Shown here: in pieces, positions 3,834 to 9,306 of the stretch
How positions within the stretch are numbered: the stretch's first letter is position 1
Layout of the letters: each line of letters starts with the position of its first letter
NCBI RefSeq assembly: GCF_900168115.1
Contig: NZ_FUZC01000001.1
Coordinates: forward strand, 558,001 to 622,000
DNA length: 64,000 bases
From: Salegentibacter salinarum
GTDB taxonomy: Bacteria; Bacteroidota; Bacteroidia; Flavobacteriales; Flavobacteriaceae
Reading direction: 5' to 3'
Translations under genes and position numbers: made by a program
The notes under the pieces: generated by a model
What the model saw: only the letters and a program-made list of their open reading frames with translations
Databases searched by the model: none
What the model was told of the DNA's origin: nothing

Positions 3834-3866
3834 AGGTGCCGGCTGTCTAAGCCAGCACCTTTTTAT
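3831..3866. terminator. Bidirectional rho-independent terminator
   Basis: AAAGGTGC and GCACCTTT form the outer stem (3832-3839 / 3855-3862), with GGCT/AGCC inside and one mismatch between. The stem is flanked by A and T runs on the two sides, so it can end both the DUF3078 gene (+) and the convergent dgt (-). Confidence 0.8.
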
Positions 3867-5212
3867 AATTTAATTCCCTTATATTTTTCAAAAGAAGCAA
3901 CGGTAAAACCATCGGTTAAAGAGGCGGTGTGTGAGCAAATTGCAAGTAAGCGTCTGTAAACCGAATTCTCATCCTGGAGATACGCTAAATTTGGAACTGA
4001 TTTTAATACCAGTTTATTGAAATTAGAATTTTCTTCTGCTTTCTGCGGAAGTAAGGCTTCAGTATAAGTATCTAAAAGGTGCGAAAGCATTTTATAGCCT
4101 GCAATTTCTTTACTAATTACCTCTTCACTCTCGTAGATTTTTTCAATACTAATTTTAATAATATCGTCTATTTGCGCTTCGTATTTACTCCTATCTAACA
4201 ATCCCTGATGAAATTTTCCTGAAAGGATTGCATCTTCATTTTTCAAGAAGGTTTCTACCGCTTCAGTAATTAAGGTATTTATGGCAAGCGCTCTTAGGTA
4301 ACTTAACCTATCTGCGGTATTGGTGAGACTGTTGTACTTCCCGGTATTTATATTGTCTTTTACAAGTTTTATAAGATATTCCAGCGCATAATCCTCATCA
4401 ATGAGCCCCAGGTTTATCCCATCTTCAAAATCTATTATAGTGTAGCAAATATCATCGGCTGCTTCTACCAGGAATGCCAATGGGTGGCGGTAATAACTTA
4501 CATCGCCCCCTTTTCCGGTTTTTATTAAGCCGAGTTCGGTTGCAAGCTCTTCAAAAATCTCTTTTTCTGTCTGGAAAAAACCAAACTTTTTATCAGCAAC
4601 ATTTTGTGTGGGTTTATGCGGTAAAGATTCTTTAGGATATTTTATAAAAGCTCCCAAAGTTGCATAAGAAAGCCGAAGCCCCCCGTCGCTACCCGGTCTA
4701 TTTTGGGTAAGAATCTTAAAACCGTTGGCGTTCCCCTCAAATTTTACAAGATCCTGGTATTCTTTTAAAGAAAGTTCATCTTTAAAACGTTTTCCATTCC
4801 CGTGACTAAAATATTCCCCGATCGCTTTTTCACCTGAATGGCCAAAAGGCGGATTTCCAATATCGTGAGCCAGTGCCGCTGCGGCTACAATGGCGCCAAA
4901 ATCGTTCATTCTATAGGCGTGGGTTTTCTCAAGCTGAGGATGTTTCTCCAGAATTTTTTGCCCTGCCAGTCTACCTAAGGATCGGCCAACTACCGAAACT
5001 TCTAAACTATGCGTGAGACGGGTATGCACAAAGTCGGTTTTTGAAAGTGGAATTACCTGGGTTTTATCCTGCAAACTTCTAAAAGCCGAAGAAAAAATAA
5101 TTCGGTCATAATCTACCTCAAACCCAAGTCGGGTTTCATTTTGTTCTTTTCGTAAGCGTTTATTGGTATCTCCAAAACGTTTTAAGGAAAGAAGTTGCTC
5201 CCAGTTCATCAT
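3863..5212 (-). CDS. dgt: dGTP triphosphohydrolase (dGTPase)
   Basis: A 449-residue HD-domain protein. His68 (RLTHSLE), His116-Asp117 (AHDIGNPPFGHSGE) and a later acidic EAADDICYTIIDFEDG form the H...HD...D metal site typical of dGTPases. The family cleaves dGTP, and often other dNTPs, to the nucleoside and tripolyphosphate, helping set dNTP pools. Two ATGs are adjacent (MMNW); the first was taken. The gene upstream on the same strand, 208 bp away, is an NrdB-like protein, so two genes linked to dNTP supply are neighbours, but a hairpin lies between them and they are probably not one transcript. Confidence 0.9.
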   Translation of the reverse strand: MMNWEQLLSLKRFGDTNKRLRKEQNETRLGFEVDYDRIIFSSAFRSLQDKTQVIPLSKTDFVHTRLTHSLEVSVVGRSLGRLAGQKILEKHPQLEKTHAYRMNDFGAIVAAAALAHDIGNPPFGHSGEKAIGEYFSHGNGKRFKDELSLKEYQDLVKFEGNANGFKILTQNRPGSDGGLRLSYATLGAFIKYPKESLPHKPTQNVADKKFGFFQTEKEIFEELATELGLIKTGKGGDVSYYRHPLAFLVEAADDICYTIIDFEDGINLGLIDEDYALEYLIKLVKDNINTGKYNSLTNTADRLSYLRALAINTLITEAVETFLKNEDAILSGKFHQGLLDRSKYEAQIDDIIKISIEKIYESEEVISKEIAGYKMLSHLLDTYTEALLPQKAEENSNFNKLVLKSVPNLAYLQDENSVYRRLLAICSHTASLTDGFTVASFEKYKGIKL

Positions 5213-5363: not shown

Positions 5364-5421
5364 GTGGATAAAAAAACTGAAACAGCGACATATTGGGGAG
5401 CATGGCGCCGGTTCCAGTTTT
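5364..5421 (-). terminator. Terminator-like hairpin after the NrdB-like gene
   Basis: Read on the minus strand, AAAACTG (complement of 5415-5421) pairs with CAGTTTT (complement of 5373-5379). CGGCG/CGCTG pairing extends the stem inward, and a run of T follows. It begins at the stop codon of the NrdB-like gene and would separate it from dgt. Confidence 0.55.
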
Positions 5422-6353
5422 TACAAATCAGTTTTTTTACTGACTTTATTAAACTCCTTGTCTGTTTTATTAATTTGAGAAAAATCCTGTGCTCTCTTGC
5501 TAACTAAGATTTCTTTGGCTAAATCCTCTCTTATTATGCTTCGGTTTAGCATTAAATCGGTAAACAATCTTCTGCTTTCGTACTCCAGGTATTCGGTTAA
5601 AGATTTCGTTTTCAGTTCAATTAAATCTAAAGGAAGAAATTCAGCAATGAATTCTTTTTCTATAGCTACAGCTTCACCAATAATTTGCTGTATTTTTTTA
5701 TCTGAAATTTCCTCTAGAAGATGATCTCTAAATAACTGCACTGCAAAATCACGATGCAGGGCTTTATCGCGGTAAATCATCTCGTAGGTGTAACAAAGTC
5801 CTGGTATTAAACCGCAATTTTTTATCCAGAAAATAGAAGCAAAACTACTGTAGGAAAAGATACTTTTTGCCGTTGCAAGGGCTACTAATTTTTCAGCAAA
5901 AGAAGTGCTGTTCGACCATTTTTGCAACCATTCTTCCCTCGCAATCGTAGCAGGATGCTTTTGAATTTCTTTAAAAATCTCTTCTTGTAAAGTGGTATTA
6001 AAAAAAGAATTTATACACATACTATAAGCTTCTGTATGTGTATTTTCCATGACTAGTTGTAAATCCAGAAAGGATCTGGCCTCAGGAAGATTAATCTTTT
6101 CGCTAATTTTTTTGGTTAAACCGCTCAGGTTTTTTTCTGTAGAAAGAATTAAACCAAGAACTTTATTAAGAAACTGGCGTTTCTCCCCATTTAATTCTTC
6201 CCAGGCTACTAAATCTTTTTGAATATCTATTTGTCCTAAAGTCCAGAAGTTAGCTTCAATAGCTTTATAGGCATCCCAAATATCGTTATGCTTAACAGGA
6301 AATATTACAAATCTGTCTTTGTTATCCCGAAGCAGGGGTTCCTGTTTACTCAT
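5421..6353 (-). CDS. Divergent ribonucleotide reductase small-subunit (NrdB/R2-like) protein with altered metal site
   Basis: A 310-residue protein clearly homologous to class I RNR radical subunits: EPLL...RFVIFPVKHNDIW, EANFWT, ENTHTEAY, FASIFWIKNCGLIPGLCY. Against mouse R2 from memory, ligands D139, E170, H173 and H270 correspond to Asp43, Glu103, His106 and His200, and the radical Tyr177 to Tyr110. E233 falls on Lys163 and E267 on Lys197, so two of four carboxylate ligands are lysine. Trp26 and Asp196 of the radical path are kept. The last ~45 residues have no Tyr and do not resemble the R1-binding tail. No nrdA, nrdI or ATP-cone is present here. It may be a metal-free or mononuclear R2 variant, or a non-catalytic paralogue; I cannot decide. 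A terminator-like hairpin starts at its stop codon. Confidence 0.75.
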   Translation of the reverse strand: MSKQEPLLRDNKDRFVIFPVKHNDIWDAYKAIEANFWTLGQIDIQKDLVAWEELNGEKRQFLNKVLGLILSTEKNLSGLTKKISEKINLPEARSFLDLQLVMENTHTEAYSMCINSFFNTTLQEEIFKEIQKHPATIAREEWLQKWSNSTSFAEKLVALATAKSIFSYSSFASIFWIKNCGLIPGLCYTYEMIYRDKALHRDFAVQLFRDHLLEEISDKKIQQIIGEAVAIEKEFIAEFLPLDLIELKTKSLTEYLEYESRRLFTDLMLNRSIIREDLAKEILVSKRAQDFSQINKTDKEFNKVSKKTDL

Positions 6354-6521
6354 TTATGTGGGGTGTTACCGTTTATTTAAAGGTTCAGTAACAAATATTA
6401 AAAAATATTCTCATTTTGTTAATATTATTTGTTTAATATTTTTACAAAGTTTTCAACACAAAAAACTAATAATTAGCAGTTTGGAGTGTCTGATATAGCT
6501 AATAATGCAAAAAATACAACT

Positions 6522-6601: not shown

Positions 6602-7339
6602 TTACTTTTCAGCAGAAAAATACCAGTTAATTTCTGAAGGGATATTTTCAATGCGTTGAATTTCTGTTGTTTTTGGAAAAATCTTTCCGGTAGAATCTTC
6701 AAAAACTTCAGTGATGTGATATTCAATAAGATTCCATCCTTCTTTTAAATCTAAAGAATAGTTTTTTGACGCCTTAAAACTTTCATTTTGGTTCTTGGTA
6801 AAAGTTGTATTGATACAGGTGCCTTCTACGGTAGCCGGTTCATCGAGATATGTCCACTCTAAATATTTCCCCGTATCGCTATTTTTTTCGCTAAAAGTAA
6901 AGAAAAAGTCTGCAACTGCTTTATTAGATGCGGGCATTAGCAAACCCAGAATTTCCTTTTCATTTTTAAACACTACCAGCTGTCTGGGGAGACTGCTTAG
7001 GTTGGTCTCTCCATTTTTATAAGATAAACCGCCAGACAGGCATGGAAAGGTTCCAGAAACGGTTTTTAAGGATGCCTGCCAGTCGTCGGGAGATTTTTCC
7101 TGTTCCTTCTCCATTTGTTCCTTCATTTTTTGAAGAAAACCAGGCTGCAGTTCAAGCGTTAAATTTCCGTTTTCATCTATACTTCCAAATTCCTGGGTGC
7201 TGCCCGAAATAAAATCCAGCACTCCAATTTTGGCTGTACCATATTCCCAGTTCTCCACATTAGCTTCAATCAGGTTTTGAGAAATTGCATTAAAACTAAA
7301 TAGAAAACAGGTTAATAAGCTTAGAATTAAAGTTTTCAT
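6602..7339 (-). CDS. Secreted protein of unknown function
   Basis: A 245-residue protein with a clear signal peptide (MKTLILSLLTCFLFSFNAIS/Q). The ATG at 7339 is preferred over an upstream in-frame start because it begins the signal peptide exactly and sits 2 nt after the stop of the preceding DUF4870 gene. The body is beta-rich, with an acidic, glutamate-rich helix around residues 65-85 (MKEQMEKEQEKSPDDW) and a C-terminal half that ends in EINWYFSAEK. I do not recognise a family. Its position suggests coexpression with the DUF4870 and DUF4412 genes upstream. Confidence 0.7.
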   Translation of the reverse strand: MKTLILSLLTCFLFSFNAISQNLIEANVENWEYGTAKIGVLDFISGSTQEFGSIDENGNLTLELQPGFLQKMKEQMEKEQEKSPDDWQASLKTVSGTFPCLSGGLSYKNGETNLSSLPRQLVVFKNEKEILGLLMPASNKAVADFFFTFSEKNSDTGKYLEWTYLDEPATVEGTCINTTFTKNQNESFKASKNYSLDLKEGWNLIEYHITEVFEDSTGKIFPKTTEIQRIENIPSEINWYFSAEK

Positions 7340-7341
7340 CT

Positions 7342-7698
7342 TTAAATATTGGCAAACCATTTCTCAAATTGATGCCCAAGAATGGGAACCGGTTTTGTTT
7401 TATGATTAACAGCGTTAATAAGCCCCATAATCCATAAATACAGCAAGAAAATTGAACCGAGGAAACTTAGGATCCATCCAAGAATCGGGATCATTCCAAT
7501 AATAAAAAGTCCTAAACTAAGCACTACCAATCCCAGGGATTGTTTAATATGAAATCCTGCAAATTCGTCTTTTTTATCGTTGTTTAATACAAAAGCTACC
7601 ACGAGCCCAATGATGGTTAAATAAGCAATAATTGCTATGGTTTTTGGATCAAAAGTGCTCTTCGCGTCGTTAGTGTGCTGTGTGTTTGAATTTTCCAT
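7342..7698 (-). CDS. DUF4870 family small membrane protein
   Basis: A 118-residue protein with a polar N-terminus followed by three to four hydrophobic segments (IAIIAYLTIIGLVVAFVL, SLGLVVLSLGLFIIG, ILSFLGSIFLLYLWIMG). The sequence FAGFHIKQSLGL and the C-terminal NAVNHKTKPVPILG are typical of DUF4870, a family of small integral membrane proteins with no established function. It is the middle gene of a minus-strand trio: the DUF4412 gene ends 11 nt upstream and the secreted protein begins 2 nt downstream. Confidence 0.8.
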   Translation of the reverse strand: MENSNTQHTNDAKSTFDPKTIAIIAYLTIIGLVVAFVLNNDKKDEFAGFHIKQSLGLVVLSLGLFIIGMIPILGWILSFLGSIFLLYLWIMGLINAVNHKTKPVPILGHQFEKWFANI

Positions 7699-7709
7699 GA
7701 TTTTATTTG

Positions 7710-8531
7710 CTATTTAGATGCGCCCAGGGCAGAATAATTTTCTTTGTTTATTGAAAAAGATTTTTTCTCAAGGCTGGTACAGCGCATATTGGTGTTATGA
7801 TCTGAATTATTTTTATCTACCATTATCATTTCCATCATTAAAGCATCGCCATCTTCCAACCAGTCAGCATTCCAGCCTTTTGGGATATTGCTTTTCTCAT
7901 CACTGTACATATTAGCAAAACTAATGGGAGCTTCCCGTGTAAGATAAAAGGTAAACTTGTGTTCTTCGGTTTCGGTTTCATAACCCTGGCATTCGTAACC
8001 CAGAATATTTTTTGTACCAATTTTCTTTAACTCTGAATTTTCATAAGGGTTCGCTTCTTCTTCAGTATTACTGAGATCTATTTTACTGGCGGTAATAAAG
8101 TTGGTATCTTCAGAAGAGAGATACATAACGGTAAGTTTTTTATCCATATCAAGCACCATAAACATACCCTCGGCTTGCGGCACCCGCATTCCAAAATAGG
8201 GAGCATCCTCCTTAAGAAGATAGGTCATGTCTACATTGCCATCTTTGGTTTCCATACTTAACTGGTATTCCCAGTTAAAATCGTAAGATTGTGGAACTTC
8301 GCTAACATCCACGCGATTAGCGCCCATTGGTATAGGACTGTTCTTGAGGTCGGTTTCCCACATTTTGTTGAGGGACTTGTTAGCCTCGTTAGCAGCTTTA
8401 TCAGAAATATTCTCGGTAACTGCATGTTCAACTTTTTTTTCAACTTTTTCTTTTAATTTCTTTAAAAACTGGGCCTCTGTAGTAGAAACACATAATAAAA
8501 GAGAGCACCCTAATAGAATTAGTTTTTTCAT
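7710..8531 (-). CDS. DUF4412 domain secreted protein
   Basis: A 273-residue protein with a signal peptide (MKKLILLGCSLLLCVSTTEA/Q). A basic, helical stretch follows (FLKKLKEKVEKKVEHAV), then a beta-rich domain with the pattern of DUF4412: a strand hairpin YLLKEDAPYFGM, VLDMDKKLTVMYLSSED, and later ILGYECQGYETETEEHKFTFYLT. In this family the second segment is usually read as a protein-resistance or export-linked periplasmic/surface domain of unknown role. It is the first gene of the trio 8531-6602. No good -7 promoter match is visible just upstream; TATATTTT near 8550 on the minus strand is one base off. Confidence 0.7.
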   Translation of the reverse strand: MKKLILLGCSLLLCVSTTEAQFLKKLKEKVEKKVEHAVTENISDKAANEANKSLNKMWETDLKNSPIPMGANRVDVSEVPQSYDFNWEYQLSMETKDGNVDMTYLLKEDAPYFGMRVPQAEGMFMVLDMDKKLTVMYLSSEDTNFITASKIDLSNTEEEANPYENSELKKIGTKNILGYECQGYETETEEHKFTFYLTREAPISFANMYSDEKSNIPKGWNADWLEDGDALMMEMIMVDKNNSDHNTNMRCTSLEKKSFSINKENYSALGASK

Positions 8532-8742: not shown

Positions 8743-9306
8743 TTAGAGGTCTTTTGCGGCTGCTTCTAACTGGTTGTACCAATCTTCGCCAAACTTTCTA
8801 ATGAGGGCGTCTTTAGTGAATTTATACACCGGCACCTGAAGTTCGGCTCCAAGGCTGCAGGCATCATCACAAATTTGCCATTTATGATAGTTTACCGCAG
8901 AAAATTCAGAATATTCCTGAATCCTTATAGGATATAAGTGGCAGGAAATAGGTTTCTTAAAATCAATATCGCCCTGGTTGTAGGCTTCTTCAATTCCGCA
9001 GAGAGCAATACCGTTATCATCAAAAGTAACGTAGGCACAATCGGCGCCATCTATTAACGGGGTTTCAATTTCGTCAAGATCGGTGGTAATATAGGTACCT
9101 TGTTTTTCTATGGCATCTATACCTTTTTGCCTTAAATAGGGTTTTACTTTGGGATAGATTTCGTCTAAAATTTGACGCTCTTCGGGTGTTACCGGTGCGC
9201 CGGCATCGCCATCTACACAGCAAGCACCTTTGCAGGCCGAAAGGTTACACACAAAATCTTTGGTTAAGATCTCTTCTGAAACTATGGTTTTTCCTATTTG
9301 AAACAT
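8743..9306 (-). CDS. DUF3109 family cysteine-rich protein
   Basis: A 187-residue protein with Cys-rich metal-site motifs: CNLSACKGACC near residues 20-31, CGIEEAY in the middle, SCHLYPIRI, and ICDDACSLG. This pattern matches DUF3109, related to the YkgJ-type Fe-S/zinc cluster proteins. The biochemical role is not known to me. The start ATG complementary to 9304-9306 gives MFQIGKTIVSEEI, the usual N-terminus of the family. It is divergent from marC, with 134 bp between. Confidence 0.85.
   Translation of the reverse strand: MFQIGKTIVSEEILTKDFVCNLSACKGACCVDGDAGAPVTPEERQILDEIYPKVKPYLRQKGIDAIEKQGTYITTDLDEIETPLIDGADCAYVTFDDNGIALCGIEEAYNQGDIDFKKPISCHLYPIRIQEYSEFSAVNYHKWQICDDACSLGAELQVPVYKFTKDALIRKFGEDWYNQLEAAAKDL

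Follow-up and report, generated by a model that had tools for sequence, protein, structure and literature searches.

What role can be left for a protein built like the radical-generating subunit (NrdB, or R2) of ribonucleotide reductase (RNR) when two of its metal-ligand glutamates have become lysines and the gene for its catalytic partner has been deleted? The question arises from one ORF, here called the orphan, in the window, by which we mean the whole stretch of 64,000 nucleotides of Salegentibacter salinarum DNA that was analysed. An initial annotation had read the ORF as an R2-like protein and had proposed that it was either a metal-free or one-metal radical protein or a non-catalytic regulator of dNTP synthesis.

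Identity and distribution of the orphan

5421..6353, minus strand: orphan NrdB/R2-like protein, 310 aa (ORF, PF00268 match, alignment to mouse R2)

The ORF, which is part of contig G000:C17 of the window's genome (G000), is real: in a Pfam profile search its product matches PF00268 with 221.7 bits against a cut-off of 33.6, and so belongs to the ribonucleotide reductase small chain family. Among proteins of solved structure it is closest to the R2 proteins of eukaryotes: human and mouse R2 and p53R2 score about 210–221 bits and yeast and Plasmodium R2 about 169–198 bits; class Ib NrdF and class Ie chains reach about 30–37 bits, and the similarity to the model of the R2-like ligand-binding oxidase is weak (22.4 bits, cut-off 194). 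The AlphaFold model of the orphan (mean pLDDT 73.7) is of moderate confidence and too weak for side-chain claims. Its best Foldseek match is human RRM2 (E 2.4e-14, TMq 0.68), yeast Rnr2 and Rnr4 are also among the fold matches, and the model supports the assignment of an R2 fold. Phage relatives exist as well: 69 records match, and the five listed have 36.6–38.8% identity, three of them being annotated as RNR subunits.

A PF00268 search found an orthologue in 13 of the 15 Salegentibacter genomes, the exceptions being G300 and G308, and no second R2 of the orphan's type in any of the 15. The S. agarivorans protein is 88% identical to that of the window, and the G301 protein is identical to the S. 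flavus one. The 13 orphans split into two groups, clade A (n = 10, including the window) and the flavus clade (n = 3). Outside the genus, none was seen in 299 and 397 genomes of the family or 395 of the order, in overlapping samples surveyed with thresholds of 1e-10, 1e-58 and 1e-76, from which rarer divergent cases might escape. One apparent divergent orphan (G161, E 1.4e-47) was rejected, being a canonical R2 truncated at a contig end. Canonical R2 proteins for comparison were taken from the best-matching loci of two family surveys (28 and 14) together with L041, L132 and L133; protein was obtained from 43 of these 45 loci, L110 and L116 being left out, and gave 35 distinct sequences.

Residues of the metal site

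Residues were mapped by a phmmer alignment of the orphan to full-length mouse R2 (1h0n). Lys163 and Lys197 fall, as had been claimed, on mouse E233 and E267, and Ser167 on F237; Glu103, His106, Tyr110, Asp196 and His200 likewise keep their counterparts at E170, H173, Y177, D266 and H270. Two of the earlier assignments have to be replaced. Asp43, taken for a ligand, lies at mouse 109, which is not a ligand position, and it is Glu73 that stands at D139; Trp26, taken for the tryptophan of the radical path, lies at mouse 92, and Trp37 corresponds to Trp103. Both tryptophans are invariant in all 48 aligned sequences. The metal-ligand set of the orphan is thus E73, E103, K163, K197, H106 and H200, which departs from the four carboxylates and two histidines that a functional NrdB requires.

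6135..6137, minus strand: Glu73 codon, the true first-ligand position, mouse D139 (alignment to mouse R2 and relatives)
5865..5867, minus strand: Lys163 codon, mouse E233 position (Lys in 10/10 of clade A, Asn in 3/3 of the flavus clade, Glu in 35/35 canonical proteins)
5763..5765, minus strand: Lys197 codon, mouse E267 position (Lys in 13/13 orphans, Glu in 35/35 canonical proteins)

All 35 canonical proteins have the full set of D, E, H, E, E and H together with the radical tyrosine. At the mouse 139 position, where these have Asp, clade A has Glu (10/10) and the flavus clade Gln (3/3). The histidine at 173 is kept in 11 orphans and is Tyr in two, and the radical tyrosine at 177 is kept in ten and is Phe in three, the flavus clade lacking it. 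A change from Glu to Asn takes two base changes and passes through a Lys or an Asp codon.

The Lys pair might have reflected a sequencing or alignment error masking normal glutamates, and the initial annotation had named standard Glu in close homologues as the sign of it. None was seen: both glutamates are lost in each of the 13 genome assemblies, the lysine recurs at E267 in every orthologue and at E233 in ten, and both AAA and AAG codons occur at each Lys site among the orphan genes. An error of this kind is thereby refuted.

Deletion of nrdA and ancestry of the orphan

3863..5212, minus strand: dgt, dGTP triphosphohydrolase, on the downstream side of the deleted nrdA (profile match and synteny)
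6602..8531, minus strand: three ORFs (unknown, small membrane-like and DUF4412) between the DUF3109 gene and the orphan (synteny)
8743..9306, minus strand: DUF3109 gene, the ancestral upstream neighbour of nrdB (Pfam and synteny)

In the canonical relatives L132 and L133 the gene order is DUF3109–nrdB–nrdA–dgt, with nrdA products of 813 and 817 aa, the former being NrdA by TIGR02506. A named MAG (L041) has DUF3109, nrdB and then an 813-aa ORF, taken as nrdA from its start and length. The Salegentibacter loci have the same flanks, but the orphan is followed directly by dgt and nrdA is absent. When the 813-aa NrdA was used as a tblastn query on the window and on 14 loci of the genus, nothing above chance emerged; the two matches obtained (E 7.5 and 7.6) both lie elsewhere than between the orphan and dgt. 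The three ORFs 5' of the orphan had no counterpart at L132 and L133; the Salegentibacter loci read have one to three such extra ORFs, apart from S. tibetensis (L036), which has none.

The ORF immediately 5' of the orphan (6602–7360) encodes 252 aa, evolves fast and has no Pfam or NCBIfam match. Its sequence runs into the end of the small membrane-like ORF, and in several species nothing matches it at that place.

In G300 (L127) and G308 (L128) both nrdB and nrdA are missing at the site, the flanking genes being retained; the best tblastn match there of the orphan or of a canonical R2 has an E-value of 0.55. Six genes of the neighbourhood were used for a species tree of 14 taxa, some of them incomplete, over 1870 columns. 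In it, the seven clade-A species included group with G300 and those of the flavus clade with G308, each grouping having a support of 100, and the genus as a whole one of 90. From this tree it follows that the orphan predates the split between clade A and the flavus clade and was lost on two separate occasions. Since it was lost twice, the orphan is dispensable.

The two groups of orphans share ten fixed differences against a six-sequence canonical set, including K197 and R201; against all 35 canonical sequences seven remain, K197 among them. With 1.07 and 1.45 changes per column, the stem branches of the two orphan groups are very long. The tree software issued a warning about long branches meeting, so that parallel change in both groups may lie behind these shared differences in sequence. 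Synteny and tree show that, by position, the orphan is the orthologue of the Flavobacteriaceae nrdB of eukaryote type, left behind after deletion of nrdA in the ancestor of Salegentibacter.

Expression signals

6444..6458, minus strand: upstream element TGTTGAAAACTTTGT (related elements at roughly half of the canonical nrdB genes examined)
5374..5420, minus strand: terminator-like hairpin and T run just past the stop codon (by folding)

The exact 15-mer TGTTGAAAACTTTGT has a single copy in the whole genome, at the orphan. An element close to TGTTGAAAACTTTGTTGAAA lies 98–108 bases before the start of all 13 orphans at up to four mismatches, and of nine at up to two; first-order Markov resamplings, used as controls, gave about 0 matches at two mismatches. 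The same kind of element is found at –108 to –129 in 18 of the 35 canonical nrdB genes (up to two mismatches); none is evident in the remaining 17. We also observe, in front of many nrdB genes of flavobacteria, a tandem element with a spacing of 12 bases, TGTTGAAAACTT–TGTTGAAAAC. In L112 one copy of the nrdB upstream element reads TGTGGATAA, which we take to be a DnaA-box sequence; the idea that the elements are DnaA boxes was rejected, as nothing at the dnaA locus supported it.

A hairpin followed by T residues was present 3' of the orphan in all ten loci folded (of the 13), with stem sequences that differ between species; a simple terminator scan did not list that of the window. It abuts the stop codon in seven of the ten and lies 80–105 bases past it in S. 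salarius, S. holothuriorum and S. maritimus, where it was located by motif. The T run is only four bases long in the two flavus-clade loci folded. The position of this hairpin between the two genes disfavours an operon with dgt. Because both the element and the hairpin are conserved, the orphan looks like a single-gene unit with a retained nrd upstream element, and judging by these signals it is probably transcribed alone.

Selection on the orphan gene

The orphan is kept by purifying selection. By the method of Nei and Gojobori, dN/dS over 48 within-clade pairs (45 in clade A and three in the flavus clade) is 0.06–0.17, at dS values of up to 2.4, and all 13 reading frames are intact, with no internal stops. 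For dgt the same pairs give 0.013–0.049, and the dN of the orphan is 2.4–11.8 times that of dgt. This faster change, the disappearance of nrdA and the lack of the gene in two of the 15 genomes would suit a decaying relic without function that is heading for loss. We regard such a fate as quite unlikely: a pseudogene is disfavoured by the low dN/dS at high dS and by the intact frames, and the upstream element and hairpin have been conserved as well.

Constraint in clade A is concentrated at the former metal site. Whereas 97 of the 197 positions that are invariant in the canonical proteins are fixed in this clade, all nine site positions are (W37, E73, E103, H106, Y110, K163, D196, K197 and H200). 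The hypergeometric P for this excess is about 0.001, and about 0.008 in a control for the same helix face; the nine positions were picked for function, and the conservation of buried positions is controlled just roughly. Five of the nine are fixed across all 13 orphans.

The radical path and the resident reductases

5424..5450, minus strand: C-terminal tail of nine residues, NKVSKKTDL, altered from the R1-binding tail to which it corresponds (sequence alignment)

The phenylalanines of the R2 tail anchor R2 to R1. The tail had been described as missing; it is present, though shortened and altered, the window's NKVSKKTDL standing against a canonical NKISFDADF. In the C-terminal region 12 canonical columns are empty in the window's row, and 8–18 over the 13 orphans. 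The first tail Phe is Lys throughout clade A (10/10) and is kept in the other three orphans, and the last is Leu in nine and absent in four; one or both are therefore replaced or absent in all 13. The other half of that claim, the loss of the last tyrosine of the radical path (Y356/Y370), stands: the residue is Phe291 in the window, and the tyrosine is retained in one of 13 orphans against 35 of 35 canonical proteins (F 5, L 4 and Y 1 in clade A). Radical transfer to R1 needs this tyrosine, and according to PMC8463856 every class I RNR characterised has conserved it.

The window's genome contains a class II NrdJ (TIGR02504, 578.7 bits against 399.95) and, at G000:C5, a second class I pair, in which a 324-aa NrdB that aligns with canonical residues adjoins a 558-aa NrdA (TIGR02510, 734.6 bits against 602.25). 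This supplies the second, normal NrdB that the initial annotation had advised looking for. It is of a different R2 type; the window's protein matches the resident NrdB in G300 at just 21% identity (E 1.5e-4). A cobalamin riboswitch precedes the second nrdBA (RF00174, 44.3 bits against 31.5, L101:5276–5409 at G000:C5; this holds for G000 only) and suggests B12-dependent switching between NrdJ and NrdBA. Across the 15 genus genomes a PF02867 search gave a long NrdJ-type match in all and a short NrdA in 13. Neither the short NrdA nor any NrdB other than the orphan was found in the assemblies G031 (100% complete) and G309 (61% complete), both of which keep the orphan. For NrdI, no PF07972 match was found in the window's genome; the same search matched three of 14 control genomes. 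Separately, G308 has a broken R2 copy near a contig start (G308:C1:11430–12098, L072), beside a second short nrdA copy; this may be the resident nrdBA duplicated at an assembly end.

The NrdA proteins present are thus only of another type, alongside NrdJ, and because its own nrdA is gone the orphan is unable to serve as the normal R2 of its own enzyme. It could have become a functional radical subunit of novel type that serves the short NrdA, either with one metal bound by E73, E103 and H106 or with a modified Tyr110 beside K197 in the manner of class Ie. In clade A, residues E73, E103, H106, Y110, H200, D196 and W37 are invariant (10/10), a short NrdA occurs in 10/10 genomes, and Lys stands at the last-ligand position of class Ie (as described in parts of PMC11846895 and PMC8463856). 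The resident NrdA already adjoins an NrdB with canonical residues, however, and NrdI was not found in the window's genome. The path tyrosine, for all its conservation in the class I RNRs covered in PMC8463856, has varied within clade A, and the tail anchor has changed. A metal at site 1 is less likely if K197 fills it, as the class Ie lysine appears to do according to a passage of PMC8463856, and G301 has a short NrdA yet carries Phe at the radical position. We consider a new radical subunit unlikely.

An arrangement like that of yeast Rnr4, in which the orphan would form a heterodimer with the resident canonical NrdB and aid its metal loading, draws on Rnr4 as the nearest functional analogue with lost ligands (as treated in part of PMC3824934) and on the presence of Rnr2 and Rnr4 among the fold matches. 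The resident NrdB is of another R2 type, however, and G031 and G309 keep the orphan in the apparent absence of any other NrdB, which makes this very unlikely.

From the loss of the path tyrosine in 12 of 13, the changed tail phenylalanines in 13 of 13 and the deletion of nrdA, we strongly infer that the orphan, although under purifying selection, no longer passes a radical to R1. The same evidence disfavours the metal-free or one-metal radical protein first proposed, a reading weakened further by the failure to find NrdI in the window's genome and by the three flavus-clade proteins that lack the radical tyrosine; the other proposal, a non-catalytic protein, fits it.

A proposed function

The reading that we think probable is that the orphan is an R2 turned non-radical and probably metal-free, with lysines in place of metal cations, that has been kept by selection after the deletion of nrdA. 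In this scheme the helical R2 scaffold would be retained, the ammonium groups of Lys163 and Lys197 would take the place of the diiron cations and neutralise Glu73 and Glu103, and these charges would make it possible for the core to fold without metal. The flavus-clade counterpart would be a Gln73/Asn163 pair together with Glu103/Lys197. The difference between the clades, E73/K163 as against Q73/N163 with E103/K197 constant, fits such a charge balance as far as the sequences go. The orphan would then probably serve dNTP metabolism or its control as a binding protein or regulator, with the resident NrdA or NrdJ as candidate partners.

Counting against this proposal, the constraint on the site in clade A exceeds what mere folding might need. 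Because E73, E103, H106, Y110 and H200 are invariant there, redox or one-metal chemistry may persist in the window's clade. The nine invariant residues could form a newly selected redox site, either metal-free with the lysines or holding a single metal, for chemistry other than that of RNR or for a new radical route; we hold this to be improbable, and a single metal there becomes less likely in view of the lysine of class Ie, which appears to take metal site 1.

Comparison with known systems

The orphan shares with the canonical eukaryote-type class Ia R2 proteins (flavobacterial NrdB, mouse R2 and human RRM2) the fold, the gene position, the upstream element, Trp37–Asp196, His200 and Glu103 and, in the window's clade, His106 and Tyr110. 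It differs from them in the replacement of two Glu ligands by Lys and of the first Asp by Glu, in the absence of the path tyrosine, in its replaced tail phenylalanines and shorter C-terminal region, and in the deletion of nrdA.

Class Ie R2 proteins (QSK and VPK), in which three Glu are replaced (PMC11846895, in part), are like the orphan in having lost more than one Glu ligand and in having Lys at the last of these positions, a lysine that appears to occupy metal site 1 (PMC8463856, likewise in part). Membership of class Ie, already doubted in the initial annotation, is rejected: the pattern is E, K, K with E103 kept, the lineage is the wrong one, with bit scores nearest to eukaryote-type R2 and not to NrdF, an adjacent R1 and the path tyrosine are lacking, and the search of the window's genome for NrdI found none.

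Rnr4 and the apicomplexan R2_e2 are described in a portion of PMC3824934 as non-canonical R2 proteins of eukaryotic lineage that act or interact with a canonical R2 and R1. R2_e2 (PfR4) resembles the orphan in forming a fast-evolving, non-canonical R2 clade with intact frames and an unconserved C-terminal Tyr; unlike the orphan, it retains the residues that bind iron and has both R1 and a canonical R2 as interaction partners (same portion of PMC3824934). Yeast Rnr4 (PDB 1sms; 1jk0 chain B) is similar in that its R2 fold has lost residues of the iron site and its role is a non-radical one. It acts together with Rnr2 and R1 (both points from that part of PMC3824934), whereas the cognate R1 of the orphan has been deleted and no canonical R2 of the same type, with which a heterodimer could form, was found in the 15 genomes. 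Among the matches listed in the open-licence literature there was nothing on the Salegentibacter orphan NrdB, and no selected R2 lacking both its R1 and a same-type R2.

At the level of the genus, the reductase has been swapped, NrdJ (B12-dependent) and the second NrdBA (riboswitch-controlled in the window's genome) replacing the ancestral NrdBA. The orphan is thereby a natural case of a radical-generating metalloprotein that has lost its catalytic partner and is still under selection with a rewired metal site, and two questions become testable: whether lysine can be a structural stand-in for a diiron centre, and what role an R2 can have without R1. Its closest comparison is with yeast Rnr4, from which it stands apart in being without both its R1 and an R2 of its own type.
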